A stretch of 64,000 nucleotides of DNA. It comes from Gigantopelta aegis (taxonomy: Eukaryota; Mollusca; Gastropoda; Neomphalida; Peltospiridae). The DNA lies in the NCBI RefSeq assembly GCF_016097555.1, contig NC_054704.1, forward strand, positions 260,331 to 324,330. Direction: 5' to 3'. Position 1 is the first letter of the stretch. Each line of letters opens with the position of its first letter. Under the pieces are notes generated by a model. It saw only the letters and a list, made by a program, of their open reading frames with translations, ran no database searches and was not told the DNA's origin. The translations under genes and the position numbers were made by a program. Positions 879 to 64,000 of the stretch are shown here, piece after piece.

Positions 879-982
879 GTTATTCGAGAAGAAACTGCAA
901 GTGCGTCGGTGTGGCGTGTCAGTGGCAGAAACCAAACTTCGCTAAATGCCAGTCGGGTCTTATTGTCCACCTGTTTGATAAA
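879..982 (+). CDS. Receptor exon 1 (visible), Cys-rich extracellular segment
   Basis: Acceptor CCGTCTAG and donor AAA/GTAGGT bound 104 nt: 2 nt that finish a split codon, then 34 codons, leaving phase 0. The peptide has four closely spaced cysteines and two aromatic residues (CKCVGVACQW, then KCQSG) and looks extracellular. Further exons must lie to the left of the window. The last 14 bases are the start of a tandem array that runs into the intron. A second frame is also open here but does not join in frame with the next exon. Confidence 0.65.
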
Positions 983-1271
983 GTAGGTATCTCACTTAGT
1001 ACATCTGTTTGATAAAGTAGGTATCTCACTTTGTCCATCTGTTTGATAAAGTAGGTATCTCACTTTGTACAGCTGTTTGACAAAGAACGTATCTCACTTT
1101 GTACAGCTGTTTGATGAAGCACATATCTCACTCTGTACAGCTGTTTGATAAAGTAGGTATCTCACTTTGTACAGGTGTTTGATAAAGTAGGTATCTCACT
1201 TTGTACAGCTGTTTGATGAAGTAGGTATCTCACTTTGTACAGCTGTTTGATAAAGTAGGTATCTCACTTTG
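966..1271 (+). repeat. 34-bp array containing the exon 1 donor
   Basis: Nine units at exactly 34-bp spacing (motif TGTTTGATAAAGTAGGTATC near 973, 1007, 1041, 1075, 1109, 1143, 1177, 1211 and 1245). The first unit spans the exon 1 donor itself. Several downstream units keep the same AAA/GTAGGT donor; the fourth and fifth units have lost it. Reading through the true donor meets a TGA within the first unit, so use of a downstream donor would truncate the protein. Confidence 0.9.
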
Positions 1272-1349
1272 TTATGATGTGGTCTTTCGCTGGTGATAAC
1301 TTTATTTTACCGACGACAGTGTGGTAATCATTCATGGGTAATCGTAATC

Positions 1350-1925
1350 GCATTTCCTTGTTAGTAATGTCTATTATAGGATCATTTATTGTTCTCTATT
1401 GTAGATATGCATTTCCTTGTTAGTAATGTCTATTATAGGATCATTTATTGTTCTCTATTGTAGATATGCATTTCCTTGTTAGTAATGTCTATTATAGGAT
1501 CATTTATTGTTCTCTATTGTAGATATAATGTCTATTATAGGATCATTTATTGTTCTCTATTATAGATATGCATTTCCTTGTTCGTAATGTCTATTATATG
1601 ATCATTTATTGTTCTCTATTGTAGATATGCATTTCCTTGCTGGTAATGTCTATTATAGGATCATTTATTGTTCTCTATTGTAGATATGCATTTCCTTGTT
1701 AGTAATGTCTATTATAGGATCATTTATTGTTCTCTATTGTAGATATAATGTCTATTATAGGATCATTTATTGTTCTCTATTGTAGATATGCATTTCCTTG
1801 CTGGTAATGTCTATTATAGGATCATTTATTGTTCTCTATTGTAGATATGCATTTCCTTGCTGGTAATGTCTATTATAGGATCATTTATTGTTCTCTATTG
1901 TAGATATGCATTTCCTTGCTGGTAA
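1350..1925. repeat. Intronic 59-bp minisatellite
   Basis: Units begin GCATTTCCTTGTTAGTAATG and contain TCTATTATAGGATCATTTAT. About ten copies are present, some shortened by loss of the GCATTTCCTTG portion (around 1525 and 1745). Confidence 0.9.
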
Positions 1926-4390: not shown

Positions 4391-4795
4391 GACCGGCCTC
4401 GGTGGCGTCGTGGTTAGGCCATCGGTGTACAACCTGGTAGGTACTGGGTTCGGATCCCAGTCGAGGCATCTGGATTTTTAATCCAGATATCGACTCCAAA
4501 CCCAGAGTGAGCGCTCCGCAAGGCTCAATGGGTAGGTGTATACCACTTACATCGACCAGTGATCCATAACTGGTTCAACAAAGGCCATGGTTTGTGCTAT
4601 CCTACCTGTGGGAAGCGCATAAAAAAGATCCCTTGCTGCCTGTCGTACAAGAGTAGCCTATGTGGCGACAGCGGGTTTCCTCTAAAAAAACCTGTCAGAA
4701 TGACCATATGTTTGACGTCCAATAGCCGACGATAAGATAAAAAATCAATGTGCTCTAGTGGCGTCGTTAAATAATACAAACTTTACTTTATTAAA
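4391..4795 (+). mobile_element. tRNA-derived SINE, full length
   Basis: The head has a pol III A-box-like block (GGCGTCGTGGTTAGG) and a B box (GGTTCGGATCC), as in tRNA-derived SINEs. A conserved body follows (AAAGATCCCTTGCTG, GGCGACAGCGGGTTTCCTCT, CATATGTTTGACGTCCAATA), then a T-rich tail. Related copies occur at 15891-16262 (+) and, in reverse, at 45725-45990, 52345-52610 and 53545-53862. It sits in intron 2 of the receptor gene. Confidence 0.85.
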
Positions 4796-5063: not shown

Positions 5064-5357
5064 ACATGCTTAGAACAAACTGCTGCATATAACGAACTAA
5101 TATTAAGGTCCCGTTTTTCCCACTATATAGTATCAATACATTTTAATGTATAAAATGAACTTTATATATAACGAATTATCTTATAAACCGAACCAAATAT
5201 TTTGTCCAAATATGTGTATACAACGAGCTGAATACAATACAATGTCACGTGATTTAAAGCAATAACAGCAATGCCGAAAACACGCACACACCGAACAGAT
5301 TTGTCAAGGAATATCTCTTTATTTTTCAGTCTGTTGAAATGTTTTATGTGATATATT

Positions 5358-5470
5358 CGTTATGTTTCAATCTGTGTTGAAATGCTTTATGCGATATATT
5401 CGTTATGTTTCAGTCTGTGTTGAAATGTTTTATGCGATATATTCGTTATGTTTCAGTCTGTGTTGAATCT
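5358..5470 (+). repeat. 43-bp repeat containing the exon 3 acceptor
   Basis: Three units at 43-bp spacing, starting CGTTATGTTTCAGTCTGTGT near 5358, 5401 and 5444. The third spans the real acceptor of exon 3 and its first coding bases. The second copy keeps an intact TTTCAG, while the first reads TTTCAA. Use of the second acceptor would add 43 nt and shift the frame. Confidence 0.9.
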
Positions 5471-5522
5471 CTTTGACATCCTGATGGAGGAGGCGCTGCA
5501 AACCACCGATGAAGAGAAGAAG
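5457..5522 (+). CDS. Receptor exon 3
   Basis: 66 nt, 22 codons, phase 0 to phase 0 (TTTCAG before, AAG/GTAAGA after). The peptide SVLNLFDILMEEALQTTDEE is helical and acidic, consistent with continued GAIN subdomain A. Its first bases belong to the 43-bp repeat just upstream. Confidence 0.75.
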
Positions 5523-7135: not shown

Positions 7136-7469
7136 GTAAGACGTCCATAGAGTTAGCCATAGTGGTATCAACAGTGACATAGTCAACGGCTTTATTAGCT
7201 TCAGTAACATCAGTACATCGTACACTTACTCAATAATCAAGAGTAATGATATAAATAACAATTTAACTGTAACATGCATTACGTTACTCATTGTAATATG
7301 ACATTTATTACCAAAGCGTAATTACAATTATGATGTTTTATTCTGGACCATGTTTATATACAGAAATCGAGTAGGAATATAATAAAACGTGTACCACTAA
7401 TTATCAACAACATTATGTGCAGTCTGGGTATTTATACATATTTGAATGTTATTCTTTCTCATGAAATCC
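7136..7469. other. Intron, nothing recognised
   Basis: AT-rich unique sequence between exon 5 and the large 38-bp array. Confidence 0.5.
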
Positions 7470-10140
7470 CGTGTTTTATATGAGATGTTATCTCAATGCT
7501 GAATCCTCGTGTTTTATATCAGACGATATCACAGTGCTGAATCCTCGTGTTTTATATGAGATGTATCACAATGCTGAATCCTCGTGTTTTATATCAGACG
7601 ATATCACAGTGCTGAAACCTCGTGTTTTATATCAGACGTTATCACAGTGCTGAATTCCCGTGTTTTATATCAGACGTTATCACAGTGCTGAAACTTCGTG
7701 TTTTATATCAGACGTTATCACAGTGCTGAATTTCCGTGTTTTATATCAGACGTTATCACAGTGCTGAATTCCCGTGTTTTATATCAGACGTTATCACAAT
7801 GCTGAACCCTCGTGTTTTATATCAGACGTTATCACAATGCTGAATTCCCGTGTTTTATATCAGACGTTATCACAATGCTGAATTCCGGTGTTTATATCAG
7901 ACGTTATCACAGTGCTGAATTCCCGTGTTTTATATCAGACGTTATCACAGTGCTGAAACTTCGTGTTTTATATCAGACGTTATCACAGTGCTGAATTTCT
8001 GTGTTTTATATCAGACGTTATCACAGTGCTGAATTCCCGTGTTTTATATCAGACGTTATCACAATGCTGAACCCTCGTGTTTTATATCAGACGTTATCAC
8101 AATGCTGAATTCCCGTGTTTTATATCAGACGTTATCACAATGCTGAATTCCGGTGTTTATATCAGACGTTATCACAGTGCTGAATTCCCGTGTTTTATAT
8201 CAGATGTTATCACAATGCTGAATTCCGGTGTTTATATCAGACGTTATCACAGTGCTGAATTCCCGTGTTTTATATCAGACGTTATCACAATGCTGAAACC
8301 TCGTGTTTTATATCAGACGTTATCACAATGCTGAATCCTCGTGTTTTATATCAGACGTTATCACAGTCCTGAATTCCCGTGTTTTATATCAGACGTTATC
8401 ACAGTGCTGAATTCCCGTGTTTTGTATCAGACTGCTGAATTCCCGTGTTTTATATCAGACTGCTGAATTCCCGTGTTTTATATCAGACATTATCACAGTG
8501 CTGAATTCCCGTGTTATATAATAGACGTTATCATAATGCTGAAACCTCGTGTTTTATATCAGACGTTATAACAGTACTGAATCCTCGTGTTTTATATCAG
8601 ACGATATCACAATGCTGAATCCTCGTGTTTTATATCAGACGTTATCACAGTGCTGAATCCACGTGTTTTATATCAGACTTTATCACAGTGCTGAATTCCC
8701 ATGTTTTATATCAGACGTTATCACAGTGCTGAATCCTCGTGTTTTATATCAGACGTTATCACAGTGCTGAAATCCTCGTGTTTTATATCAGACGTTATCA
8801 CAGTGCTGAATTCCCGTCTTTTATATCAGACGTCATCACAATGCTGAATTCCCGTGTTTTATATCAGACGTTATCACAATGCTGAATTCCCGTCGTTATC
8901 ACAATGCTGAATTCCCGTGTTTTATATCAGACGTTATCACAATGCTGAATCCTCGTGTTTTATATCAGACGATATCACAATGCTGAATCCTCGTGTTTTA
9001 TATCAGATGTTATCACAGTTCTGAATTCCCGTGTTTTATATCAGACGTTATCACAGTGCTGAATTCCCGTGTTTTATATCAGACGTTATCACAAAGTTGA
9101 ATTCCCGTGTTTTATATCAGACGATATCACAGTGCTGAATTCCCGTGTTTTATATCAGACGTTATCACAGTGCTGAATTCCAGTGTTATATAATAGACGT
9201 TATCACAATGCTGAAACCTCGTGTTTTATATCAGACGTTATAACAGTACTGAATCCTCGTGTTTTATATTAGACGATATCACAATGCTGAATCCTCGTGT
9301 TTTATATCAGACGTTATCACAGTGCTGAATCCACGTGTTTTATATCAGACTTTATCACAGTGCTGAATTCCCATGTTTTATATCAGACGTTATCACAGTG
9401 CTGAAACCTCGTGTTTTATATCAGACGTTATCACAGTGCTGAATTCTCGTGTTTTATATCAGACGTTATCACAGTGCTGAATTCCCGTCTTTTATATCAG
9501 ACGTCATCACAATGCTGAATTCCCGTGTTTTATATCAGACGTTATCACAATGCTAAATCCTCGTGTTTTATATCAGACAATATCACAATGCTGAACACTC
9601 GTGTTTTATATCAGATGTTATCACAGTTCTGAATTCCCGTGTTTTATATCAGACGTTATCACAATGCTGAATTCCCGTGTTTTATATCAGACGTTATCAC
9701 AGTGCTGAATTCCCGTGTTTTATATCAGACGTTATCACAATGCTGAATTCCCGTGTTTTATATCAGACGTTATCACAATGCTGAATCCTCGTGTTTTATA
9801 TCAGACGATATCACAGTGCTGAATCCTCGTGTTTTATATCAGATGTTATCACAGTTCTGAATTCCCGTGTTTTATATCAGACGTTATCACAGTGCTGAAT
9901 TCCCGTGTTTTATATCAGACGTTATCACAATGTTGAATTCCCGTGTTTTATATCAGACGTTATCACAGTGCTGAATCCTCGTGTTTTATATCAGACGATA
10001 TCACAGTGCTGAATTCCCGTGTTTTATATCAGACGTTATCACAGTGCTGAATTCCCGTGTTTTATATCAGACGTTATCACAATGCTGAATTCCCGTGTTT
10101 TATATCAGACGTTATCACAGTGCTGAATTCCCGTGTTTTA
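7470..10140 (+). repeat. 38-bp minisatellite ending at exon 6 acceptor
   Basis: About seventy units of roughly 38 bp, core TGCTGAATTCCCGTGTTTTA then TATCAGACGTTATCACAG. The last unit merges directly into the exon 6 acceptor (GTTTTAATTCTGTAG). Each unit carries TTTTATATCAG, itself acceptor-like on the gene's sense strand. A larger duplication is visible: a rare variant containing GTTATATAATAGACG occurs near 8512 and 9183. Confidence 0.9.
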
Positions 10141-10149
10141 ATTCTGTAG

Positions 10150-10276
10150 ACTCTGTCAACAGCAGCGAGTCCCAGAACGATGACGGCGATGACGTGTACA
10201 GCACAGAGACGATGTTGGTGTTTGAACTGAACACAGTCTTCACGCAGCTCCTGTTGGATCAGGAAACAGAAGGATT
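10150..10276 (+). CDS. Receptor exon 6, Ser/Asp-rich loop then helix
   Basis: 127 nt (2 + 41 codons + 2): phase 1 in, phase 2 out (TCTGTAG before, GGATT/GTAAGT after). The peptide starts with a Ser/Asn/Asp-rich stretch (NSSESQNDDGDDVYS) and continues as MLVFELNTVFTQLLLDQETE. Together with exon 5 it forms an acidic, probably disordered insertion of about 60 residues before the GPS. Confidence 0.75.
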
Positions 10277-10480
10277 GTAAGTACATCACCATCACCATTA
10301 TCATCATCATCACCATCATTATCATCATCGTTATCGTCATCATCATCACCATCACATCATCATCATCATCATCACTACCACCACCATCATCATCATTATC
10401 ATTATCGTCATCGTCATCACCATCATCATTATCGTCATTATCATCATCATCATCGTTGTCAACATTATCATCATCATTAT
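10277..10480. repeat. Imperfect ATC/CAT trinucleotide repeat
   Basis: About 200 bp of CATCATCAC-type microsatellite directly after the exon 6 donor. It is broken by GTC and TTA variants. Confidence 0.9.
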
Positions 10481-10608
10481 TTTACTACTACTACTATTTT
10501 AATAAAGGGGGCCCAAAACTTTTGAAAATAGAATTTAAATGTTTTGACAGGTGCATGGGATAACTGCATTTTTGTGTATTCTGTAATATATATTGTTTCA
10601 CCAAAACT

Positions 10609-10644
10609 GCTACTACTACTACTACTAGTAGTAGTAGTAGTAAC

Positions 10645-10730
<86 letters not shown>

Positions 10731-10735
10731 TTACT
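10609..10735. repeat. CTA/TAG trinucleotide repeat with inverted start
   Basis: Six CTA units switch to about thirty-five TAG units, which makes a local palindrome. Poly-Leu and poly-Ser reading frames here are simple-repeat artefacts. Confidence 0.95.
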
Positions 10736-10794
10736 ACGAGCTGAAAGAGCATTAGTTCATATTTCATAAACATGATAAGAAAATTTAAAGTGTA

Positions 10795-11060
10795 TTATTT
10801 TATAATACACACACGTCATAACAGTCTATTGTTTTATAATACACACACGTCATAACAGTCTATTGTTTTATAATACACACACGTCATAACAGTCTATTGT
10901 TTTATAATACACACACGTCATAACAGTCTATTGTTTTATAATACACACACGTCATAACAGTCTATTGTTTTATAATACACAGCTATAACAAAGTACATGT
11001 ATATTGTTTCGTAATAGACAGACATTAAAATGTGTTGTTCTATAATACACAGCTATAACA
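10795..11060. repeat. 34-bp minisatellite, about five copies
   Basis: The unit GTTTTATAATACACACACGT plus CATAACAGTCTATT is repeated at 34-bp spacing to about 10980, then decays. A few more degenerate units recur near 12990-13070, beyond the inserted sequence. Confidence 0.85.
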
Positions 11061-11498
11061 AAGTGTATTATCTCGCCTTCATGTAAAATTCTTTAATCTC
11101 ATTGGTTGTTTGCCGTTGGACAAATCCCTTATATCCCTGTGGGCGGAGCCAAATTCTCTTATACCCCGTCTGTAATTTCCAACAGTTTCCAGCCACCCCA
11201 GTTAATGCTAAAGCAATAATTAGATTATAAATAACATTGATAATCAATCAAGTATACATAATTAATTATATTTTTACTATAAAATACACTATTTCAATAG
11301 TTTTAAAAGCTACAATGTTGAACTGGGCCACCTAATTACGGTCGTGGTGTTATTGTATTAATGCGCGATTAGCAACAGTTGTTTTTTGTTTTTTATTTTT
11401 AATATTTTTATTTTATTACTTCATACATTTCTGATAAAAAAAAGAGGTTTTTTGTTTGTTTTGTTTTTATTAATATCTGTTTCAGACAATTTCGTATT

Positions 11499-12648
11499 TG
11501 TGACGGAACATGTTCTTATCTTTTCGCGACGGTGGTAGTCTTGTGTCCCAATATGCACTTACACCAGGTGGGCACTTGGTTACATAATACCTCCGCGCGA
11601 CCGTACCCCCTAATACACACCCAGACAAGGTGTGGAGGCCATGTGGCCAGTAGTTACGTAATAACTCCGGTAGTGCGTTTTATGACCGGGGTATTGCTGG
11701 CGAACTCGCGACAGTAAGTCTGGCCATCTAAGAAAATATACCGACTCTGGGAGTTGTGGAAATATCACATGATAGGTGAGGTACCGCGTTGTGCCCCCAG
11801 GCGATATTCGCTGTCTCTGAGATTTTTGAATAAATAGATAGGATTTTAGATATATCGAGGAGAAACATTGGAAGTATCCAGGGGAAACGGACGTCGTCCA
11901 CTGAACGATCTATATAAGTTCAGTCCGGACGTGGTAAATATATTTTTCTGCTCTGTTGTATAACCTGTGATTGATGTGACTTTAAATATTTTAATACTGT
12001 ATTGTACCAATATTCTTTAGACAGTGTCTCCGGTAATCTGACGAAGTAAATTGTAGGCTTCACTGTTCTAATATATTTATACGAGTATTTGGTAAGATAA
12101 AGCTTAGCCGGTTATCCTAGAGGACCTAGGTAAACTGTAGGTTATTGTCTTTATTGTGATAGGTACCAGTATTAATTCTGTATTACAAGGTTACTGAATG
12201 AGTATTTAAGGGTTAATTAAAAATTAACCAGTTAGGAATAGAGTTGTAATTCCTTTATTAATTAAGTTCCCCTGGAAGCGTTTCTCAATTATCACACGTG
12301 TGTGTGTGTATCACGGTGAAGTGATTAGAATATTGTGTAAACTAGACACCTAGTAATTAACTAATTAAGTGATTAGTTCTGGATTGTTATTATATTGTTG
12401 TTGTAAATTAACTACTGCGGCAAGTACATTTGTCAGCGTAGTGTTAATACAGATTCCAAAGTGTATTGTGTTTTGTTATGTTTTCTAGTGAACTAAACGT
12501 GCTATATATAATTATATTTATATAAGATCTTATCTCTGATTATACCTAGAGCCGAGCCACTCGGGTATTGGACTGCCCGATACAGAGAGATCTAATAGAT
12601 ATACCGTTAGAAGAGATATTTGGATAATCGTGTTTTATTCAGTTACGG
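11499..12648. mobile_element. Possible solo LTR fossil
   Basis: The block of about 1.15 kb starts TGTGACGG and interrupts the degenerate 34-bp repeat region. It has a TATATAAG-type box near 11911 and an AATAAA near 11830. The 5-bp GTATT lies just left of the start and again at 12649-12653, as a target-site duplication might. No internal coding region is present. The right end does not show the usual CA, so the call is weak; it could be another kind of non-coding insertion. Confidence 0.3.
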
Positions 12649-12832
12649 GTATTACAAACATTTGAAGTTAAAAACTCGTTTATCGATGGAACTATTTTTC
12701 GTCACTGGCAAGTGTTTTCGTTCGCGTCCGCGTGGTACGGCTCCGTTAATAAATTGTTAACAATTATTGTCTGGCGTTATTTTGATTATTTGGCTATATG
12801 CCTATGGTTTAACATGTCGGCAAGATAAATTC

Positions 12833-12973
12833 GTTGTAGAAGCATCTCTCGGGGTATATGGCTTTTTATGTACCCTCTGTGTGCTCTGTTACCCCCTCGC
12901 CTTCGGCTCGGGGTAAAAGAACACACAAAGGGTACATAAAAAGCCATATACCCCTCGTGATGCTTCTACAACT
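12833..12973. repeat. Long palindrome (hairpin of about 60-bp arms)
   Basis: The left arm runs TTGTAGAAGCATCTCTCGGG and GTATATGGCTTTTTATGTAC. The right arm is its near-complete inverse, ending GATGCTTCTACAAC. The loop is CCTCGCCTTCGGCTCGG. It is probably a foldback element. Confidence 0.85.
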
Positions 12974-13118
12974 TATACTGTTTTATATTACACAGACGTC
13001 ATAACAATTATGTTGATGTATAATACACAGCCATGACAAAGTATATTGATTTATAATACAAGGTGTATTGTCGTGTTCTTGTTTAATTCACTAATGTGCT
13101 TGTAATTGTTAATTGCAG

Positions 13119-14130: not shown

Positions 14131-14272
14131 GGGGGTGTTCTTAATGAAAACAAACTTTTATTCAGTGTGTCTAATTGGGCTTTTTTAGTTGACTTGTAAA
14201 TATTTAGAAACTGTTGTTGGTTACAACTCGTTGATGTGTATACTAGTAGTTAGAGATTGTTGTTATTTTCAG

Positions 14273-14328
14273 GAGAAATCTCCAATACAGTTTAACACTA
14301 TCTGCGTGTCTTGGCAGACAAATGAAAC
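14273..14328 (+). CDS. Receptor exon 8 copy 1, first half of GPS
   Basis: 56 nt, phase 0 in and phase 2 out (ATTTTCAG before, GAAAC/GTAAGT after). It encodes EKSPIQFNTICVSWQTNE plus a split Thr codon. CVSW supplies the first GPS cysteine and tryptophan; the rest of the GPS is in the exon at 15557. This copy has the best pyrimidine tract and is adopted in the model, but copies 2-4 are equally compatible with the reading frame. Confidence 0.75.
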
Positions 14329-14346
14329 GTAAGTCATTGCTTTTAG

Positions 14347-14402
14347 GAGAAATCTCCAATACAGCTTAACACTGTCTGCGTGTCTTGGCAGACAAATGAA
14401 AC
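14347..14402 (+). CDS. Exon 8 copy 2 (alternative)
   Basis: Acceptor TTTTAG, donor AAC/GTAAGT. Same frame as copy 1, with Phe to Leu and Ile to Val changes just before the GPS cysteine (QLNTVCVSW). It could replace copy 1 in a message without changing length. Confidence 0.5.
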
Positions 14403-14420
14403 GTAAGTCATTGCTTTCAG

Positions 14421-14476
14421 GAGAAATCTCCAATACAGTTTAACACTGTCTGCGTGTCTTGGCAGACAAATGAAAC
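14421..14476 (+). CDS. Exon 8 copy 3 (alternative)
   Basis: Acceptor TTTCAG, donor AAC/GTAAGT. It encodes QFNTVCVSW and differs from copy 1 only by Ile to Val. Confidence 0.5.
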
Positions 14477-14494
14477 GTAAGTCATTGCTTTTAG

Positions 14495-14550
14495 GAGAAA
14501 TCTCCAATACAGCTTAACACTGTCTGCGTGTCTTGGCAGACAAATGAAAC
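14495..14550 (+). CDS. Exon 8 copy 4 (alternative)
   Basis: Identical to copy 2 in the exon and both splice sites (TTTTAG acceptor, GTAAGT donor). Confidence 0.5.
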
Positions 14551-14568
14551 GTAAGTCATTGCTTTCAG

Positions 14569-14624
14569 GAGAAATCTCCAATACAGTTTAACACTGTCTG
14601 CGTGTCTTGGCAGACAAATGAAAC
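14569..14624 (+). pseudogene. Exon 8 copy 5, donor lost
   Basis: The coding part equals copy 3 and the TTTCAG acceptor is intact, but the donor reads TTAAGT instead of GTAAGT. It should therefore not be usable as an internal exon. Confidence 0.8.
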
Positions 14625-14654
14625 TTAAGTCATTGCTTTTTTACTTCATTGGGG

Positions 14655-14955
14655 TGCGAGACGTAGCCCAGTTGGAAAGCGCTTTTCTGATTTGTGGTTG
14701 GTCAAGGATCGATCCATGTCAGTGGCCTACTGGTCACTATGTGCACCACGACTGATATATCAAAGGCCATGGTATGTGCTCTCATGCTTGTGAGGTAGTT
14801 CATATAAAACATTCCTTGCTACTAATGAAACAATGTAGCGGGTTTCCTCTCTAAAAGTATATGTCAGAATTACCATATGTTTGACATCCAATAGCCGATG
14901 AGTAATAGGCCAGTATTCTCTAGTGGTGTTGTTAAACAAAAATTAACTTTAAACT
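14655..14955 (+). mobile_element. tRNA-derived SINE, related body
   Basis: The head GTAGCCCAGTTGGAAAGCGC is A-box-like and GGATCGATCC is B-box-like. The body matches the other SINEs (GCGGGTTTCCTCT, CATATGTTTGACATCCAATA, CTAGTGGTGTTGTTAAACA). It starts a few bases after the exon 8 array. Confidence 0.75.
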
Positions 14956-15280
14956 CTTTAATTCATCATTAATTGACGTCCTTTCTATGTTTTGTTTTTG
15001 TGAACTACCATCAGTGGTCGTATGTAAATCTTACAAATGTAAATATTAATATTATTCATTAAGGTATTTAACATAATTAAAATGAAACCAGAATGTTCAG
15101 TTTGACTGTGAAACTGGTTGAAACATGGATAACATGTCAATACATGTTAAATGTGCACAACTGTTAAAATTTAAAAACTAAAAACGCAATATAATTGTTT
15201 TTTATATCTTTAAATACTAATATGGTAGTAACATTACATTTTAATAACTTTTACTGACATAGTATATAATGATTTAGTCC
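14956..15280. other. Intron, nothing recognised
   Basis: AT-rich unique sequence leading into the acceptor-bearing array. Confidence 0.45.
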
Positions 15281-15284
15281 GTGT

Positions 15285-15562
15285 GTAATTCAGGAATTAA
15301 ACCTTTCTGATATAGTATATGACGATTTAGTCGGTTTGTTATTCAGGAATTAACTTTTACTGACATAATATATAACAATTTATTCCGTTTGTTATTCAGG
15401 AATTAACTTTTACTGACAGTATATAACGATTTATTCCGTTTGTTATTCAGGAATTTACGTTTACTGACATAGTATATAACGATTTATTCCGTTTGTTATT
15501 CAGGAATTTAAATTTTCTGACATAGTATATGACTATTTATTCCGTTTGTTATTCAGGAATTT
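15285..15562 (+). repeat. About 53-bp array containing the exon 9 acceptor
   Basis: Six copies of a unit ending in GTTTGTTATTCAGGAATT, with acceptors near 15290, 15345, 15399, 15450, 15502 and 15556. The last is the acceptor used in the model. The repeat thus includes the first coding bases of exon 9. Unit spacing varies between about 51 and 55 bp. Confidence 0.9.
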
Positions 15563-15683
15563 ACTACACGGGTATTGGTCAGTGAAAAACTGTGTTGTTC
15601 TCAGCGCCAGCGCCGCCTCCACCAGATGTCTGTGTACGGTGCCCGGCCACTTCGGAGTGATTGCCCGCCAGGTGAACGAGACT
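15557..15683 (+). CDS. Receptor exon 9, second half of GPS
   Basis: 127 nt (1 + 42 codons): phase 2 in, phase 0 out (ATTCAG before, GAGACT/GTGAGT after). It supplies the second GPS tryptophan and cysteine (GYWSVKNC) and the final pair (CLC), giving the C-W-W-C-C-C GPS layout with exon 8. At the cleavage position, where the family has HLT or HLS after C-x-C-N, this protein has V-P-G (CLCTVPGHFGVI). Autoproteolysis is therefore unlikely. The residues after it would be the tethered-agonist strand leading to TM1. Confidence 0.8.
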
Positions 15684-15890
15684 GTGAGTAGTCTCACACT
15701 AGCAGTGTTTCGTTGTTGTCACGTGGGACAGATGTGTTGATGAGACGGTCACCAAGCAACTCACTGTAACCATTCAAACCACATAGCTTTGTTGCGAATC
15801 ACAGTAATACAAAACATTGTTGAATAAATTTATAGGTAACACTTTGTTCATAGTCTGGGTAAGATTACTATCTTCATATTATTGTTATTA
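15684..15890. other. Intron, nothing recognised
   Basis: Short unique AT-rich intron sequence. Confidence 0.4.
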
Positions 15891-16262
15891 GGCCATCGGT
15901 CTACAGGGTAGTAGGTACTGGGTTCGGATCCCAGTCGAGGCATGGGATTTTTAATCCAGATACCGACTCCAAACCCTGAGTGAGTGCTCCGCAAAGCTCA
16001 GTGGGTAGGTGTAAACCACTTGCACCGACCAGTGATCCATAACTGGTTCAACAAAGGTCATGGTTTGTGCTATCCTGCCTGTGGGAAGCGCAAATAAAAG
16101 ATCCCTTGCTGCTAATCGGAAAGAGTTGCCCATGTAGTGGCGACAGCGGGTTTCCTCTCAAAATCTGTGTGGTCCTTAACCATATGTCTGACGCCATATA
16201 ACCGTAAATAAAATGTGTTGAGTGCGTCATTAAATAAAACATTTCTTTCTTTTTTTCTTTCA
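15891..16262 (+). mobile_element. tRNA-derived SINE, 5'-truncated
   Basis: It begins within the tRNA head (TAGGCCATCGGTCTACAGGG), keeps the B box GGTTCGGATCC, and then the full body and a TTTCTTTC tail. It is close in sequence to the copy at 4391-4795, missing about 30 bp of the head. Confidence 0.85.
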
Positions 16263-16289
16263 TATTATTGTTAAGACATTGCTTTGTTT

Positions 16290-17100
16290 ACAGTAAGAGA
16301 AATGCATTGCGTTGTGTGGTTGGTCAGTACATTATTTTGTTCACACTATGGGCAATGCATTGTTTTGTTCACATTATGGGTGAGATATTATTTTGTTAAC
16401 ACAGGATAATACATTATTTTGTTTATATTGTGGGTAATACATTATTTTATTCACACTATGGCCAGTACATTATTTTTTCACACTATGGCCAACACATTGT
16501 TTTGATCACACTGTGGGTAATACATTGTGTTGTTAACGCTATGGGTAATACATTGTGTTGTTAACGCTATGGGTAATACATTGTGTTGTTAACGCTATGG
16601 GTAATACATTGTGTTGTTAACGCTATGGGTAATACATTGTGTTGTTAACGCTATGGGTAATACATCATTTTTTTCATAAACATTCATTTATTTATTTATT
16701 ATTCTTTTTTTTCACACTATGGCCAATACATTGTTTTGTTCACACTATGGGTAATAAATTGTTTTGATCATACTGTGGGTAATATATTGTTTTGTTAACG
16801 CTATGGGTAATACATACTTTTTTTCACACTATGGCCAATATATTGTTTTGTTCATACTATGGATAATACATTGTTTTGATTATACTGTGGGTAATACATT
16901 GTTTTGTTAACGCTATGGGTAATACATAAAAAAAAATCACACTATGGCCAATACATTGTTTTGTTCACACTATGGATAATAAATTGTTTTCATCATACTG
17001 TGGGTAATACATTGTTTTCATAACACTATGCGTAATACATTATTTTATTCACACGGAAAGAAATATATTGTTTTGTTCACATTATGGGTAATACATAAGA
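16290..17100 (+). repeat. About 28-bp array, left part
   Basis: Many units of TACATTGTTTTGTTCACACT plus ATGGGTAA with substitutions, deletions and a GTTAACGC variant repeated five times (16515-16665). The array is interrupted by a 1.25-kb insertion and resumes at about 18345. Confidence 0.85.
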
Positions 17101-48679: not shown

Positions 48680-48915
48680 CATGTCTCACATCAGTACAAC
48701 CTCACGAAAACATCTCACAAACCTCAAATCAGTACCTTGCAAAAACATATCACAAACCTCACATCAGTACAACCTCGTGAAAACATCTCACAAACCTCAC
48801 ATCAGTACAACCTCGTGAAAACATCTCGCAAACCTCACATCAGTACAACCTCACAAAAACATCTCACAAACCTCACAACAGTACAACCTTGCGAAAACAT
48901 CTCACAAACACATCA
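48680..48915 (-). repeat. About 37-bp array next to an exon acceptor
   Basis: About seven units of ACCTCACATCAGTACAACCT plus CGTGAAAACATCTCACAA. It begins within 20 bp of the exon 48498-48662 acceptor. Confidence 0.9.
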
Positions 48916-49895
48916 GCATACACTGTTCTCATAATTATAGGACAAACACATCAGCATACACTGTTCTCATAATTCTAGGACAAACGCATCAGCATATACT
49001 ACTGTTCTCATAATTCTAGGACAAAAACATCAGAATACACTGTTGTTCTCATAATTCTAGGACAAACACATCAGCATATACTGTTGTTCTCATAATTCTA
49101 GGACAAACACATCAGCATACACTGTTCTCATAATTCTAGGACAAACACATCATACACTGTTCTCATAATTCTAGGACAAACACATCAGCATACACTGTTC
49201 TCATAATTCTAGGACAAACGCATCAGCATATACTGTTGTTCTCATAATTCTAGGACAAACGCATCAGCATACACTGTTCTCATAATTCTAGGACAAACAC
49301 ATCAGCATACACTGTTGTTCTCATAATTCTAGGACAAATGCATCAGCATACACTGTTCTCATAATTCTAGGACAAACACATCAGCATACACGGTTGTAAT
49401 CATAATTCTAGGACAAACGCATCAGCATATACACTGTTCTCATACTTCTAGGACAAACACATCAGCATACACTGTTCTCATAATTCTAGGACAAACACAT
49501 CAGCATACACTGTTGTCATAATTCTAGGACAAACACATCAGCATACACTGTTCTCATAATTCTAGGACAAATACATCATACACTGTTGTCATAATTCTAG
49601 GACAAACACATCAGCATACACTGTTCTCATAATTCTATGACAAATACATCATACACTGTTGTCATAATTCTAGGACAAACACATCAGCATACACTGTTCT
49701 CATAATTCTAGGACAAACACATCAGCATACACTGTTCTCATAATTCTAGGACAAACACATCAGCATATACTTCTCATAATTCTAGGACAAACACATCAGC
49801 ATATAATTCTAGGACAAACACATCAGCATACACCGTTGTTCTCATAATTCTAGGACAAACACATCAGCATACACGTTCTCATAATTCTAGATATG
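48905..49895. repeat. About 38-bp array
   Basis: About twenty-six units of CACATCAGCATACACTGTTC plus TCATAATTCTAGGACAAA with small indels. The same unit occurs three times in the opposite orientation at 57175-57275. Confidence 0.95.
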
Positions 49896-51310: not shown

Positions 51311-52344
51311 ACATAAATGTAGTATTCTATTTATAACATATCCTCGAAATACAAACATATAAAATTTTATAAAATCATATATACATACATAGTGTGGGTT
51401 CAAAAAGTGGTTTTCGGCAAGTATTTTCGCTTGACAAGAATGGCGGCACGTCGCGGTCATTTTCAGGGATCGATAGCTGATTGTGACAGCTAATTTGATA
51501 ATAAATTTGATCGTTTTCCCAACAACGAAAATTACCAAATATTGCAATATGAATCTTAGTTCGGGTTTAAAAAACCCATTCTGGTCAGAAAACCACTGTT
51601 ATCGGGAATAATGGACATAAATACTGGACAGCTGGCCACAAATGCCCGTAAGTAAATGCAACTTTTTCGATTTTTGGCCTAATTTTAATCACCATTAGCC
51701 GATCTAAAATAATAAAAATTACAAAAAAAAAGACACGAAAATAATACTTACCGATTCATATATGAACTTTATTTCATGTATTTATAAAACATTTAAGTGA
51801 ATATATGTGAGTAAAAATTATAAACTTGTACCCACTCAACGTGGTTTTTGTCTAAAGGTTAAACTGTTACCAAAAATATATGAATTATTAGCATATGTTA
51901 TCAAAAATAACAAATGATGCTCTCACCAAGGGGTGGGTAAGAAATTTGCATATTTAATACCTATTTTCTGGAGTGTCATCACATATTTATTCCACACATG
52001 TGCATACCATGTTAGACATTTGTTTCAGAATACTAGCCTCATTGGTATCACAATGGTTGAGCCATCTGTGTCATGTTTGACAGGTGCAGGGTTCAAATCA
52101 TGGTACTGGTTCCATCCGAGAGTGGGACAAAGGAATATTTGGTCTGTCAGATACCAATTACTTTACAACTCGCTTTCGCTCATAAGATACATTTGAAAAC
52201 AACTCATTGTAAGCTAAATGGTATCTCTTTATCATATATGGCCATTACACCAAATTGCATCTCACTAAGCACTCATCAGTAACCGGCTATATCAGACAGC
52301 TGATGTGTGTGTTCACAATCATGTGTTTGAACCTTGAGAATAAA
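51311..52344. other. POLR1A intron, possible tRNA-like SINE head
   Basis: Mostly unique AT-rich intron. Near 52055-52100 the sequence AATGGTTGAGCCATCTGTG and GCAGGGTTCAAATCATGG resembles a pol III A and B box pair, but no recognised SINE body follows. Confidence 0.35.
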
Positions 52345-52610
52345 GAAGGAAGGAATTGGTTTATTTAATGACACACTCAAACATTTTTATTTACAGTTAT
52401 ATGGCATCGGACATATGGTTAAGGACCATACAGATATTGAGGGAGGAAACCCGCTGTCGCCACTTCATAGGCTACTCTTTTCGATTAGTAGTAAGGGATA
52501 TTTTATATTCACTATCCCATAGACAGGATAGCACATACCACGGCCTTTGATATATCAGTCGTGATGCACTGGCTGTGACGGGAAATAGCCCAATGGGCCC
52601 ACTGACGCCT
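52345..52610 (-). mobile_element. tRNA-derived SINE, reverse, head truncated
   Basis: The body is inverse to the SINE at 4391 (AGTAAGGGATATTTTATATT, CCCGCTGTCGCCACTTCATA). The tail TTTATTTAATGACACACTC is at the left. It is close in sequence to the copy at 45725-45990. Confidence 0.8.
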
Positions 52611-53475: not shown

Positions 53476-53544
53476 TCAAACTGGCTGATGTGTTCAGTGT
53501 ATAGTTAGCACTAACAGAGTATTCCACACATAAACTATGGGGAA

Positions 53545-53862
53545 AAGTTAAAGTTTGTTTTGTTTAATGACACCACTAGAGCACATTTATTTATTAATCA
53601 TCAGCTATTGGATGTCAAACATTTGGTAATTCGGACTCATAGGCATCAGAGGAAAGCCGCTACATTTTTCCTAATGCAGTATGGGATCTTTTATATGAAC
53701 TTTCACAGACAGGAAAGCACATATCATAGCCTTTCACCAGTTGTGGTGCACTGGTTGGAATGAAAAAAACCCAATCAATTGAATGGATCTACCAAGGTGC
53801 TTCGATCCTGCGATGCAAGCACCTCAAGCGAGTACTCAACCGACTGAGTTAAATCCCAGCCA
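53545..53862 (-). mobile_element. tRNA-derived SINE, reverse, full length
   Basis: On the minus strand the head reads ATTTAACTCAGTCGGTTGAG, with a B-box-like GGATCGAAGC. Then the body (AAGATCCCATACTGC, CAAATGTTTGACATCCAATA) and an A-rich tail follow. The head differs from the 4391 copy, so at least two SINE families share this body. Confidence 0.8.
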
Positions 53863-54624: not shown

Positions 54625-54699
54625 CTGCAATATCAAACATCACACAACAAAATAACATGACTTTACAATATCGGAAATACAGATAGTTTACGGTCATAA

Positions 54700-54977
54700 A
54701 CTAAAAGATGTATTTATGAGACGACAAACTAAAGTAAGTGTTTACAAGATCACAAACTAAAGTAAAATATTACAAGATCACAAACTAAAGTGAATGTTTA
54801 CAAGATCAAAAACTAAAGCAAGTGTTTAGAAATTACAAATTAAAGTGAGTTTTTACAAGATCACTAACTGAAGTGAGTGTTTACGAGATCACAAACTAAA
54901 GTTGTTTACAAGATCATAACCTAAAGTGAGTGTTTACGGGATCACAAACTACACTAAGTGTTTACAAGATCACAAAC
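54700..54977 (-). repeat. Array containing the donor of the 54978 exon
   Basis: About eight irregular units of AAGTGAGTGTTTACAAGATC plus ACAAACTA. Read on the minus strand, each unit carries GTTTGTGATCTTGTAAAC, which is exactly the donor region of the exon at 54978-55180. Confidence 0.85.
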
Positions 54978-57109: not shown

Positions 57110-57355
57110 TACATCAAATTATTTGTTTTGGTCCGTTATGTTAAAAAAAAATCCTACCACTGGCAAATATATGCTGATGCGTTTGTCCTGGAATTATGAG
57201 AACAGTATATGCTGATGTGTTTGTCCTAGAATTATGAGAACAGTGTATGCTGATATGTTTGTCCTAGAATTATGAGAAGTATATCTGGCCGCTGGATTAC
57301 ATCAAATTATTTGTTTTGGTCCGCTATGTTAAACAAAAATCCTACCACTGGCAAA
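57110..57355. repeat. Duplicated segment carrying three stray 38-bp units
   Basis: CCGCTGGATTACATCAAATT plus ATTTGTTTTGGTCCG occurs at about 57110 and again at 57290. Between them are about three units of TGCTGATGTGTTTGTCCTAG plus AATTATGAGAACAGTATA, the inverse of the 48905-49895 array unit. Confidence 0.85.
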
Positions 57356-57634: not shown

Positions 57635-58807
57635 CTGCAAGACACAACATTACCAAATATCTGTATCAACAGCTGCAAGACACAACATTACCAAATATCT
57701 GTATTAACAGTTACAAGAGACAACATTACCAAATATCTACATCAACAACTACAAGAGAAAATTACCTACAAAACCAATCATTACCTAATCTCTATACCAA
57801 CAGCTACAAGAGACAACATTACTGAATATCTATGTCAACAGCTACAATAGACAACATTACCTAATCTCTATGTCAACAGCTACAATAGACAACATTACCT
57901 GATCTCTATACCAACAGCTACAATAGACAACATTACTTAATCTCTATATCAACAGCTACAATAGACAACATTACCTGATTTCTATATCAACAGCTACAAT
58001 AGACAACATTACCTAATCTCTATACCAACAGCTACAATAGACAACATTACCTGATCTCTATATCAACAGCTACAATAGACAACATTACCTAATCTCTATA
58101 CCAACAGCTACAAGAGACAACATTACTGAATATCTATGTCAACAGCTACAATAGACAACATTACCTAATCTCTATGTCAACAGCTACAATAGACAACATT
58201 ACTTAATCTCTATATCAACAGCTACAATAGACAACATTACCTGATTTCTATATCAACAGCTACAATAGACAACATTACCTGATCTCTATATCAACAGCTA
58301 CAAGAGACAAGATTACTGAATATCTACGTCAACAGCTACAAGAGACAACATTATCTAATCTCTATATCAACAGCTACAATAGACAACATTACTGAATATC
58401 TATGTCAACAGCTACAATAGACAACATTACCTAATCTCTATGTCAACAGCTACACAAGACAACATTACCTAATTTCTATATCAACAGCTACAATAGACAA
58501 CATTACCTGATTTCTATATCAACAGCTACAATAGACAACATTACCTGATTTCTATATCAACAGCTACAAGAGACAACATTACTGAATATATATGTCAACA
58601 GCTACAAGAGACAACATTACCTACTCTCTATACCAACAGCTACAAGAGACAACATTACCAAATATCTATATCAACAGCTACAATAGACAACATTACTGAA
58701 TATCTGTCAACAGCTACAATAGACAACATTACCTGATCTCTATATCAACAGCTACAAGAGACAACATTACTGAATATCTTTGTCAACAGCTACAAGAGAC
58801 AACATTA
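57635..58807 (-). repeat. 38-bp array carrying an acceptor and a donor in every unit (part 1)
   Basis: About thirty units of CTGATCTCTATATCAACAGC plus TACAAGAGACAACATTAC. On the minus strand each reads TCTCTTGTAG, then a 19-nt CTGTTGATATAGAGATCAG, then GTAATG: a micro-exon-like unit. The unit next to the exon supplies its real acceptor (GTGTCTTGCAG). Confidence 0.95.
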
Positions 58808-59640
58808 CCTACAATCTAATTAAAATTAGCTCTACTAGGACTAGCCAGTAGATCTAACAGCATTGTGTGGACTCCCATGTCCAGGTGACATTTCATCTAT
58901 AAATAACAATTTAAATATCGACCAATTACACTTCGCCTTTTATAGCGTTATTCAGGAACATACAAATGCAATAGGCGAACTTGTTGGTCTATTTCAACAT
59001 TGAAAAAACAGGGGGAAAAGTGCAGTAATACACTTTGAATTGTATACTAGTATAAACAGATTTTATGGCTATACCATCACAGTTTATTTTTTCGTCTTGA
59101 AACAAATTTTATATAAAATTTTATATTGCAATTAGTTTCCGGCATACTTCGTAATTCATCCGAATTATTTCGTATACCCTCGGCANNNNNNNNNNNNNNN
59201 NNNNNNNNNNNNNNNNNNNNNNNNNNNNNNNNNNNNNNNNNNNNNNNNNNNNNNNNNNNNNNNNNNNNNNNNNNNNNNNNNNNNNNNNNNNNNNNNNNNN
59301 NNNNNNNNNNNNNNNNNNNNNNNNNNNNNNNNNNNNNNNNNNNNNNNNNNNNNNNNNNNNNNNNNNNNNNNNNNNNNNNNNNNNNGTCCGATGGTCGGCG
59401 ATGTGTCCCCATTCATCAGTGTCCGAGAGAGCCTCGCGTCCCAAATACTTCGTAATTCATCCGAATTATTTCGTATACCCTCGGCATAATCCCGAATGTT
59501 TTCAAATTCTTTTCAAATCACTGGCATGATTTTGCAAGTAAGGTTTTGATTGGTCGAATAAAAGGTCAACTGGACATGAGCTCCAACGGGCTGCTGTTAG
59601 ATCCACATGTAATAGTGGAGCTAATTTTAATTAGATTGCA
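58808..59640. mobile_element. TIR element, first copy, with assembly gap
   Basis: Left end CTAATTAAAATTAGCTCTAC and TCTAACAGCATTGTG; right end is the near inverse (CTGTTAGATCCACATG, GAGCTAATTTTAATTAG). It is the same element as at 62825-63385 but broken by the gap. The segment TACTTCGTAATTCATCCGAA with the following TTATTTCGTATACCCTCGGC occurs on both sides of the gap, whereas the other copy has it once. No coding is seen. Confidence 0.75.
59186..59385. other. Assembly gap, 200 N
   Basis: Exactly 200 N followed by about 60 bp (GTCCGATGGTCGGCGATGTG and on) not present in the other copy of this element. Confidence 0.95.
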
Positions 59641-62600
59641 TTACCTAATCTCTATATCAACAGCTACAAGAGACAATATTACCTGATCTCTATACCAACA
59701 GCTACAAGAGACAACATTACCTGATCTCTATATCAACAGCTACAAGAGACAATATTACCTGATCTCTATATCAACAGCTACAAGAGACAATATTACCTGA
59801 TCTCTATATCAACAGCTACAAGAGACAACATTACCTGATCTCTATATCAACAGCTACAAGAGACAACATTACCTGATCTCTATATCAACAGCTACAAGAG
59901 ACAACATTACCTGATCTCTATATCAACAGCTACAAGAGACAACATTACCTGATCATCAACAGCTACAATAGACAACATTACCTGATCTCTATATCAACAG
60001 CTACAATAGACAACATTACCTGATCTCTATATCAACAGCTACAATAGACAACATTACCTGATCTCTATATCAACAGCTACAAGAGACAACATTACTGAAT
60101 ATCTATGTCAACAGCTACAATAGACAACATTACCTGATCTCTATATCAACAGCTACAAGAGACAACATTACCTGAATATCTATATCAACAGCTACAAGAG
60201 ACAACATTACCTGATCTCTATATCAACAGCTACAAGAGACAACATTACCTGATCTCTATATCAACAGCTACAAGAGACAACATTACCTGATCTCTATATC
60301 AACAGCTACAAGAGACAACATTACTGAATATCTATGTCAACAGCTACAAGCAACATTACCTACAATAGCTACAACATTACTGAATATCTATGTCAACAGC
60401 TACAATAGACAACATTACCTGATCTCTATATCAACAGCTACAAGAGACAACATTACCTGATCTCTATATCAACAGCTACAAGATACAACATTACCTGATC
60501 TCTATATCAACAGCTACAAGAGACAACATTACCTGATCTCTATATCAACAGCTACAAGAGACAACATTACTGAATATCTATGTCAACAGCTACAATAGAC
60601 AACATTACTGAATATCTATGTCAACAGCTACAATAGACAACATTACTGAATATCTATGTCAACAGCTACAATAGACAACATTACTGAATATCTATGTCAA
60701 CAGCTACAATAGACAACATTACTGAATATCTATGTCAACAGCTACAAGAGACAACATTACCTGATCTCTATATCAACAGCTACAAGAGACAACATTACCT
60801 GATCTCTATACCAACAGCTACAAGAGACAACATTACCTGATCTCTACATCAACAGCTACAATAGACAACATTACTGAATATCTATATCAACAGCTACAAT
60901 AGACAACATTACCTGAATCTCTATGTCAACAGCTACAAGAGACAACATTACCTGATCTCTATATCAACAGCTACAAGAGACAATATTACCTGATCTCTAC
61001 ATCAACAGCTACAAGAGACAACATTACCTGATCTCTATACCAACAGCTACAAGAGACAACATTACTGAATATCTATGTCAACAGCTACAATAGACAACAT
61101 TACTGAATATCTATGTCAACAGCTACAATAGACAACATTACTGAATATCTATGTCAACAGCTACAAGAGACAACATTACCTGATCTCTATACCAACAGCT
61201 ACAAGAGACAACATTACCTGATCTCTATACCAACAGCTACAAGAGACAACATTACCTGATCTCTATGTCAACAGCTACAATAGACAACATTACTGAATAT
61301 CTATATCAACAGCTACAATAGACAACATTACTGAATATCTATGTCAACAGCTACAAGAGACAACATTACCTGATCTCTATATCAACAGCTACAAGAGACA
61401 ATATTACCTGATCTCTACATCAACAGCTACAAGAGACAACATTGACTGCAGTAATACACTTTGGATTACCTATACTAGTCAACAGCTACAAGATGTAGTT
61501 ATGTCAACATTTACAATAGACAATAGACAACATTACTGAATATCTATGTCAACAGCTACAATAGACAACATTACTGAATATCTATGTCAACAGCTACAAT
61601 AGACAACATTACTGAATATCTATGTCAACAGCTACAATAGACAACATTACTGAATATCTATGTCAACAGCTACAATAGACAACATTACTGAATATCTATG
61701 TCAACAGCTACAATAGACAACATTACTGAATATCTATACCAACAGCTACAATAGACAACATTACCTGATCTCTATACCAACAGCTACAATAGACAACATT
61801 ACCTAATCTCTATACCAACAGCTACAATAGACAACATTACCTGATTTCTATACCAACAGCTACAATAGACAACATTACCTGATCTCTATATCAACAGCTA
61901 CAATAGACAACATTACCTGATCTCTATATCAACAGCTACAATAGACAACATTACCTGATCTCTATATCAACAGCTACAATAGACAACATTACCTGATCTC
62001 TATACCAACAGCTACAAGAGACAACATTACCTGATATCTATACCAACAGCTACAATAGACAACATTACCTGATTTCTATACCAACAGCTACAATAGACAA
62101 CATTACCTGATCTCTATATCAACAGCTACAATAGACAACATTACTTGATCTCTATATCAACAGCTACAATAGACAACATTACCTGATTTCTATATCAACA
62201 GCTACAATAGACAACATTACCTGATCTCTATATCAACAGCTACAAGAGACAACATTACCAAATATCTATATCAACAGCTACAATAGACAACATTACTTAA
62301 TCTCTATATCAACAGCTACAATAGACAACATTACCTGATTTCTATATCAACAGCTACAATAGACAACATTACCTGATCTCTATATCAACAGCTACAAGAG
62401 ACAAGATTACTGAATATCTACGTCAACAGCTACAAGAGACAACATTACCTAATCTCTATATCAACAGCTACAATAGACAACATTACTGAATATCTATGTC
62501 AACAGCTACAATAGACAACATTACCTAATCTCTATGTCAACAGCTACACAAGACAACATTACCTAATCTCTATATCAACAGCTACAATAGACATTACCTG

Positions 62601-62824
62601 ATTTCTATATCAACAGCTACAATAGACAACATTACCTGATCTCTATATCAACAGCTACAAGAGACAAGATTACTGAATATCTACGTCAACAGCTACAAGA
62701 GACAACATTACCTAATCTCTACATCAACAGCTACAATAGACAACATTACCTGATCTCTATATCAACAGCTACAAGAGACAACATTACTGAATATCTTTGT
62801 CAACAGCTACAAGAGACAACATTA
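59641..62824 (-). repeat. 38-bp array, part 2
   Basis: About eighty units as at 57635-58807, with variants (GATCTC or AATATC; AGAGAC or ATAGAC; ATATCAAC, ATACCAAC or ATGTCAAC) in patchy blocks. The whole stretch from about 58806 to 62824 acts as a higher-order unit of about 4.02 kb that also contains the TIR element. Confidence 0.95.
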
Positions 62825-63385
62825 CCTACAATCTAATTAAAATTAGCTCTACTAGGACTAGCCAGTAGATCTAACAGCATTGTGTGGACTCCCATGTCCA
62901 GGTGACATTTCATCTATAAATAACAATTTAAATATCGACCAATTACACTTCGCCTTTTATAGCGTTATTCAGGAACATACAAATTCTAAAAATATCAGGC
63001 GAGACTTTTATGCAATAGGCGAACTTGTTGGTCTATTTCAACATTGAAAAAACAGGGGAAAAAGTGCAGTAATACACTTTGGATTGTATACTAGTATAAA
63101 CAGATTTTATGGCTATACCATCACAGTTTATTTTTTCGTCTTGAAACAAATTTTATATAAAATTTTATATTGCAATTAGTTTCCGGCATACTTCGTAATT
63201 CATCCGAATTATTTCGTATACCCTCGGCATAATCCCGAATGTTTTCAAATTCTTTTCAAATCACTGGCATGATTTTGCAAGTAAGGTTTTGATTGGTCGA
63301 ATAAAAGGTCAACTGGACATGAGCTCCAACGGGCTGCTGTTAGATCCACATGTAATAGTGGAGCTAATTTTAATTAGATTGCATT
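62825..63385. mobile_element. TIR element, second copy, whole
   Basis: About 560 bp with inverted ends of about 65 bp (CTAATTAAAATTAGCTCTAC at left; inverse at right). It sits in the 38-bp array between ACATTACCTACAAT and ATTGCATTACC. It has no open frame. The flanking array units are the same as around the first copy, so the second arose by array duplication rather than by fresh insertion. Confidence 0.8.
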
Positions 63386-64000
63386 ACCTAATCTCTATAT
63401 CAACAGCTACAAGAGACAATATTACCTGATCTCTATACCAACAGCTACAAGAGACAATATTACCTGATCTCTATATCAACAGCTACAAGAGACAATATTA
63501 CCTGATCTCTATATCAACAGCTACAAGAGACAATATTACCTGATCTCTTTATCAACAGCTACAAGATACAACATTACCTGATCTCTATATCAACAGCTAC
63601 AAGAGACAACATTACCTGATCTCTATATCAATACAAGAAACAGCTATCTCTATATCAACAAGACAAGAGACACATTACCTGACTCTATATCAACAGCTAC
63701 AAGAGACAACATTCTTACGAATATCGTATGTCAACAGCTATTACCTCAACAACAGCTACAAGAGACAACATTCTATACAACAGCTACAAGATCAACATTA
63801 CTATATCAACAGCTACAAGAGACAACATTACCTGATCTCTATATCAACAGCTACAAGAGACAACATTACCTGATCTCTATATCAACAGCTACAAGAGACA
63901 ACATTACCTGATCTCTATATCAACAGCTACAAGATACAACATTACTGAATATCTATGTCAACAGCTACAAGAGACAACATTACCTGATCTCTACACATCA
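63386..64000 (-). repeat. 38-bp array, part 3, running off the window
   Basis: Same unit as parts 1 and 2. Between 63610 and 63800 the units are scrambled and truncated, unlike anywhere else in the array. The array continues past the right edge. Confidence 0.9.

Follow-up and report, generated by a model that had tools for sequence, protein, structure and literature searches.

We analysed a stretch of 64,000 nucleotides from Gigantopelta aegis (contig NC_054704.1, positions 260,331 to 324,330; below, the window), which carries an adhesion G-protein-coupled receptor gene, here called the receptor, on the plus strand and the 3' part of POLR1A on the minus strand. Segments of 28-100 bp are tandemly duplicated in both genes, and eleven arrays and one displaced copy include or abut an exon edge or a stop codon. 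Our preferred explanation, to which we give a probability of roughly 0.57, is that these are minisatellites of the type called "mirages" in amphioxus: neutral duplication would be tolerated at exon edges, and the excess there would come mainly from short ancestral introns and from survival beside exons.

The exon map of the window comprises 20 exons with 40 edges, 38 of them splice edges and two stop ends. Arrays were called by Tandem Repeats Finder (TRF), and each edge was tested for an ungapped shifted self-match crossing or touching it. This test found, at 13 of the 40 edges, a repeat that crosses the edge or exactly abuts it; the other 27 have none. The affected edges are the donors of receptor exons E1, E8, E11 and E12 and of POLR1A exons pD and pB, the acceptors of E3, E8, E9, pE and pA, and both stop codons (Table 1). 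Ten edges are crossed, with 9-59 exonic bp inside the repeat. These include 8 of the 38 splice edges (seven crossed by arrays and one by the displaced copy), and both boundary types are present: donors of E1, E8, E11 and pD, acceptors of E3, E8, E9 and pE. The donor of E12, the donor of pB at 54978 and the acceptor of pA at 57634 are abutted exactly, with 0-1 exonic bp repeated. The extra copies sit on the intron or 3' side of the edge.

The original prediction, made from the letters of the window, had listed twelve sites of this kind. All of them were confirmed, and a TRF array was found at every one except 48304-48345, so that there are eleven arrays, the remaining site being one displaced copy. 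The unit was said to include the exon boundary throughout; this is true of eight arrays and the displaced copy, whereas three arrays merely touch the edge. The predicted range of periods, 34-74 bp, was too narrow, since the periods of the edge arrays measure 28-100 bp. The view that the arrays are independent events holds, as the eleven edge arrays fall into eleven different sequence families, among 30 families in the window. The family assignment that connects 1350-1936 with 59639-62827 is a weak one.

Three edge families are kilobases long. One occupies the whole intron between E12 and E13, where all but 34 bp (6,671 of 6,705 bp) is array. The family at the receptor stop codon has three further arrays, up to 32186, and the family at the pA acceptor extends to the end of the window. 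The E8 array repeats a whole exon. Its copies differ by one or two residues and form a two-copy higher-order pattern, and the last donor is TT instead of GT. The spacers between the copies are 18 bp long, too short for separate introns, and thus at most one copy should enter the mRNA. At the pE acceptor (47957) the self-match is split into two segments, a 3-bp indel lying at the junction. Both copies of pE and both copies of pD retain AG or GT, as judged by eye in gapped or shifted register. In the scan of the E11 array eight off-register matches were set aside, and the eight in-register copies were counted by eye. On the minus strand, many 38-bp units at 57635-58811 contain an acceptor-like CTTGTAG and a donor-like AGGTAATG, which together could delimit a mini-exon of about 19 nt in each copy.

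Table 1. Exons with affected splice edges, and the repeats that cross or abut exon edges and stop codons (window coordinates).
Feature	Position	Strand	Details
Receptor exon E1	879-982	+	donor GT at 983; placed by splice consensus, frame and the match of joined E1-E5 to 4dlo
Receptor exon E3	5457-5522	+	
Receptor exon E8	14273-14328	+	56 nt, first half of GPS motif
Receptor exon E9	15557-15671	+	
Receptor exon E11	19325-19433	+	
Receptor exon E12	20192-20233	+	
POLR1A exon pE	47957-47847	-	acceptor at 47957
POLR1A exon pD	48662-48498	-	donor at 48498
POLR1A exon pB	55180-54978	-	donor at 54978
POLR1A exon pA	57634-57467	-	acceptor at 57634
E1 donor array	963-1272	+	34-bp unit, crosses donor, ~20 exonic bp; GT in 7/9 copies
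E3 acceptor array	5311-5467	+	43-bp unit, crosses acceptor, 11 exonic bp; AG in 3/4 copies
E8 whole-exon array	14267-14639	+	74-bp unit, 56-nt exon x5; acceptor AG 5/5, donor GT 4/5
E9 acceptor array	15245-15565	+	53-bp unit, crosses acceptor, 9 exonic bp; AG in 6/6 copies
E11 donor array	19420-19828	+	52-bp unit, crosses donor, 14 exonic bp; truncated by 200-N gap; GT in 7/8 in-register copies
E12 donor array	20234-26904	+	~38-bp unit, starts exactly at donor GT; GT in 19/19 copies in first 0.9 kb
Receptor stop array	29788-30301	+	50-bp unit with last codons and stop, 38 exonic bp; TAA in 10/10 copies
POLR1A stop array	46911-47251	-	64-bp unit with last codons and TAG stop, 31 exonic bp; TAG in 5/5 copies
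pE acceptor duplication	47898-48129	-	100-103-bp unit, 2.3 copies, 65 intronic and 59 exonic bp
pD donor-end displaced copy	48304-48345	-	single copy, 183 bp from its donor; no array
pB donor array	54698-54977	-	28-bp unit, ends exactly at donor 54978; GT in 8/9 copies found
pA acceptor array	57635-63993	-	38-bp family, four arrays, starts at acceptor 57634; AG in 30/31 copies in 57.62-58.85 kb

The exon edges were set by splice consensus, frame continuity and homology. With the exon-proximal sites (the first copy in the case of E8), 16 of the 18 junctions join in open frame; the acceptor of E5 and the donor of E9 each have two equally open choices. The junction between E11 and E12 is masked by a 200-N assembly gap at 19829-20028, directly after the E11 array, and the receptor transmembrane segments TM3-TM6 are absent between these exons. 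This gap probably hides several receptor exons. Receptor exons E5 and E7 fail to join in frame, and an exon was probably missed between 7.1 and 13.1 kb. The E5-E7 intron (7136-13118) is 6 kb long, half of it is array, and it may hide the missing exon. Exons E1-E5, when joined, match BAI3 in its extracellular region (4dlo, E=3e-5), and E8-E11 correspond to the GPS motif plus TM1-TM2 (matches to Pfam GPS and 7tm_2 and to ADGRL3 8jmt). Exons E12-E14 and the piece of the C-terminal tail have no Pfam match. The POLR1A exons align with residues 1309-1358 and 1585-1719 of human RPA1, and when joined they match Pfam Rpb1 domain 5 with E=3e-27. Taken alone, pD scores weakly against human RPA1, and pB and pC have no significant match, so that the latter two were placed by frame and position. 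A second 200-N gap lies at 59186-59385. Its flanks (58812-59638) match 62829-63381 at 93% and 100% identity, and 42 bp are common to both gap sides; judging from these matches, this part of the assembly may contain a false duplication or a wrong join. A search of the window for tRNAs with the bacterial code found none, and a search against Rfam gave nothing at gathering scores.

There is no clear sign that the extra copies are kept for use. Column conservation was computed from 8 of 9 copies for E1, 5 of 5 for the E8 acceptor, 6 of 6 for E9 and 7 of 8 for E11. In the E1 and E11 arrays the splice dinucleotides are conserved no better than the other columns of the unit. At the E8 acceptor and in the E9 array they are invariant, tied with many other columns. 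The mean column identity of these four aligned arrays is 91-98%, and the retention of signals in the copies is what such identity gives.

All tests against chance refer to this single window, which was chosen because the pattern had been seen in it. The arrays considered have a period of at least 20 bp; after merging there are 42-44 of them, a hand-merged list of 42 being used in most tests, and they cover 49-50% of the window. Within the window the positions of arrays do favour edges, whereas there is no excess per base. Indeed, 30% of exon-adjacent noncoding positions lie in arrays, against 52% of all noncoding positions; when only arrays shorter than 1 kb are considered, there is a mild excess (28% against 19%). 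Under circular shift, 12-13 of the 40 edges lie in arrays or at most 20 bp from them, with about 21 expected, which is no enrichment, and the number of arrays touching an edge, 11-12 against 8.8-9.0, is not clearly raised (P 0.19 and 0.06 for two array sets). The other measures do show an excess. Array ends at most 20 bp from an edge number 8-9 against about 2 under circular shift, a count reached in 2/1,729 and 0/1,729 shifts. When arrays were placed at random while sparing exon cores, 1.0-3.8 touched edges against the observed 11-12, and none of the placements (eight settings, 300 placements each) reached the observed number. Shuffling of arrays within their own introns gave an expectation of 2.8 edge sides with an array at most 20 bp away, against 12 observed (0/20,000 shuffles). 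This result was unchanged when row 553-608 (score 52) was added and the pA array was started at 57635, 57638 or 57644; only the count within 1 bp varied (11 or 10). Simple chance overlap fits the per-base and arrays-touching measures, but it explains neither the array ends nor where arrays sit within introns, and was therefore not accepted.

In the explanation that we prefer, duplication would occur by ordinary slippage or repair, with no special site, across the short introns and untranslated regions (UTRs) of a minisatellite-prone genome. A duplication whose unit spans a splice junction would be close to neutral: the copy attached to the full exon would still give a normal mRNA, while the others would become intron or, in the case of the stop arrays, 3' UTR. 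The exon-proximal copies are probably the spliced ones, which fits the reports on splicing in amphioxus. Later, unequal exchange or slippage could expand an array into the intron, up to kilobases, with the seed staying at the exon edge. Sequence beside exons is expected to be protected from large deletions, so that old arrays would survive there. The excess at edges could then be due mainly to the shortness of ancestral introns and to this survival. From just outside an exon to its inside, array coverage decreases gradually (positions about +1, -1, -20 and -40 bp from the edge have values of 0.30, 0.22, 0.15 and 0.08), as expected if duplications overlap exon ends harmlessly, but not exon interiors.

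Since arrays lengthen introns, an excess at edges need not mean a junction-seeking process. Five introns contain less than 20 bp of array; their lengths are 522, 1048, 507, 263 and 332 bp, the 1048-bp one ending in the E8 array. If 42 arrays are seeded in 12.3, 9.2 or 7.7 kb of noncoding DNA, then 6.5, 8.7 or 10.4 are expected at edges against 11 observed (P 0.07, 0.26 and 0.47). The excess is thus unremarkable provided that seeding took place in introns of about 0.4-0.5 kb, similar to most of the array-free introns of the window, and the introns were lengthened afterwards. Several points weigh against this explanation. It is the assumed short-intron step that carries the argument: with one seed per array in the 30.7 kb of noncoding DNA that remain after collapsing the arrays, 2.6 arrays are expected to cross or abut edges instead of 11 (Poisson P ~9e-5), and with seeding by 30-31 families only 1.9 (P ~4-5e-6). 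In 12.3, 9.2 and 7.7 kb the family-level expectations are 4.7, 6.3 and 7.5 (P 0.009, 0.056 and 0.14). Counted by families, the account therefore needs less than about 9 kb of noncoding DNA, and with P=0.056 at 9.2 kb the matter is not closed. The three arrays that start exactly at a junction exceed the expectation for a random phase of the unit. Finally, none of the eleven edge-array periods is divisible by three, against 11 of 31 for the other arrays (Fisher P=0.041; post hoc), which neutral seeding does not predict. However, this contrast depends on which TRF period was assigned to each array, it is contradicted by the 60- and 108-bp units given for the amphioxus PGBD5 mirage in the available part of PMC3902484, and we treat it as a curiosity only.

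One possibility is a mutational process with a preference for starting tandem duplications at exon-intron junctions, for instance through AG-GT microhomology or through breaks that GC steps, chromatin steps or transcription favour. The original prediction offered such a process together with the alternative that splicing hides the copies and makes them tolerable. The latter fits the anatomy of the arrays; the former is compatible with the excess at the level of arrays, but is not required by it. Placement within introns, the array ends and the number of seeds counted by families all speak for a junction process. On the other hand, intron edges are not richer in arrays per base than other noncoding DNA apart from the mild excess of the shorter arrays, and the arrays touching edges are not in clear excess under circular shift. 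Two of the eleven edge arrays are at stop codons rather than splice junctions, which points to edges of constrained sequence generally. The exonic part of the repeat varies from 0 to 59 bp, so there is no fixed start point, and the window was picked after the fact. We consider this process possible, but unlikely.

The exact coincidence of three junctions with array ends (the donors of E12 and pB and the acceptor of pA) could also mean that intronic arrays came first and that deletions between array and exon then made an array copy the functional splice site. In these three cases the splice sites may have been taken over from the array. Such capture does not produce units with exonic sequence, which are seen in eight arrays and the displaced copy, and as a general explanation it is improbable. 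Selection for redundant splice sites or stop codons, or for copies used in alternative splicing, would account for the fact that most copies found retain the splice dinucleotide or the stop (the E12 and pA arrays were scanned in part). However, the retention matches the column identity of the aligned arrays, the choice of another copy would break the reading frame because the periods are never multiples of three, and the E8 copies are too close to each other for splicing as separate introns; this explanation is quite improbable as well. An assembly artefact, that is, arrays created by false duplication or haplotype joining, is very improbable. It could be suspected from the gap adjoining the E11 array, where TM3-TM6 are missing, and from the second gap, both contig ends of which recur at 62.8-63.4 kb. 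Yet the copies differ by scattered substitutions, and the E8 array has its two-copy pattern. Edge arrays occur throughout both genes, and a gap is near only those of E11, E12 and the intron at 57.6-64 kb. In the available part of PMC3902484, moreover, amphioxus PGBD5 was upheld by new sequence data, though two assemblies differed in copy number.

Other repeats are also present in the window. Copies of a dispersed repeat resembling a short interspersed element (SINE) lie at 4414-4790, 14640-14955, 15888-16290, 45700-45987, 52320-52606 and 53540-53800, some with TTTC-rich tails. It may resemble a SINE known from molluscs; its sequence had no match in the viral contigs, prokaryote contigs or papers searched. 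Some minisatellite families recur at separate places (48685-49890 and 57168-57278; 16328-17096 and 18371-18702; 42307-43245 and 45331-45660), one pair being in inverted orientation and 95% identical. This recurrence suggests that arrays or units can move within the locus. A weak match to PRDM9 lies within the 42-bp array at 52.6-53.5 kb, and we discount it as spurious.

The original paper on mirages is that of Canestro 2002, as cited in PMC3087553. The original prediction knew of no described system of this kind; this was mistaken, as the amphioxus mirages, in the portions of the two reports available (PMC3087553, PMC3902484), are the same kind of structure. There the name denotes tandem duplications of exon-intron boundaries in Adh3, the globins BflGb6 and BflGb9, troponin C and PGBD5. 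They occur at both 5' and 3' boundaries and at several loci, many copies retain AG or GT, and they are reported not to disturb splicing. Their units measure 10-160 bp (PMC3087553, in the part available). The PGBD5 mirage, with its two unit lengths, was confirmed by new sequence data, and troponin C is also mentioned (PMC3902484, likewise in part). The kind is thus already known; what may be new is the density, the whole-exon array, the stop-codon arrays and perhaps the lineage. An intronic minisatellite has been reported in abalone, and the available account places none at a boundary (PMC6905558). Word searches of the literature listed no mollusc case that spans a boundary, although this does not prove that none exists.

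In a host other than amphioxus these arrays would widen the known range of mirages; in amphioxus they would add one more example of a feature already known. If the density holds genome-wide, it would provide many natural trials of the choice made by the spliceosome among near-identical tandem splice sites, offer a concrete route for the lengthening of introns and 3' UTRs, and make mirages testable beyond the single-gene reports from amphioxus. A broader proposal is that boundary minisatellites are systematic outside cephalochordates, with the birth of arrays concentrated at edges of constrained sequence, both splice junctions and stops, and driving the lengthening of introns and 3' UTRs. We regard it as doubtful. 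If it were true, mainly units not divisible by three would persist, slips to decoy copies being removed by nonsense-mediated decay.

The likeness to the amphioxus mirages, as far as the available parts of these papers describe them, lies in the boundary-spanning units, the involvement of both boundary types, the unit lengths of 28-100 bp, which are inside the amphioxus range, and the copies that keep AG or GT. The differences are that here eleven arrays and one displaced copy occur in two adjacent genes within 64 kb, and that one array contains a whole exon five times and two arrays span stop codons, all of this in one haplotype and at the level of DNA. Two other systems are related, each again judged from the part of the source available. 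In intron gain by tandem duplication, as in potato RdRp (PMC4974935), the duplicated segment also carries exon-intron signals; in the window the exon stays intact, the duplicated copies lie next to it in an intron or 3' UTR, and no new intron is shown. Human genes in segmental duplications (PMC2812944) have boundary minisatellites with units of about 30 bp that alter the gene structure. Those are recent paralogues in which the altered structure is documented by transcripts, whereas the arrays described here are known from DNA.

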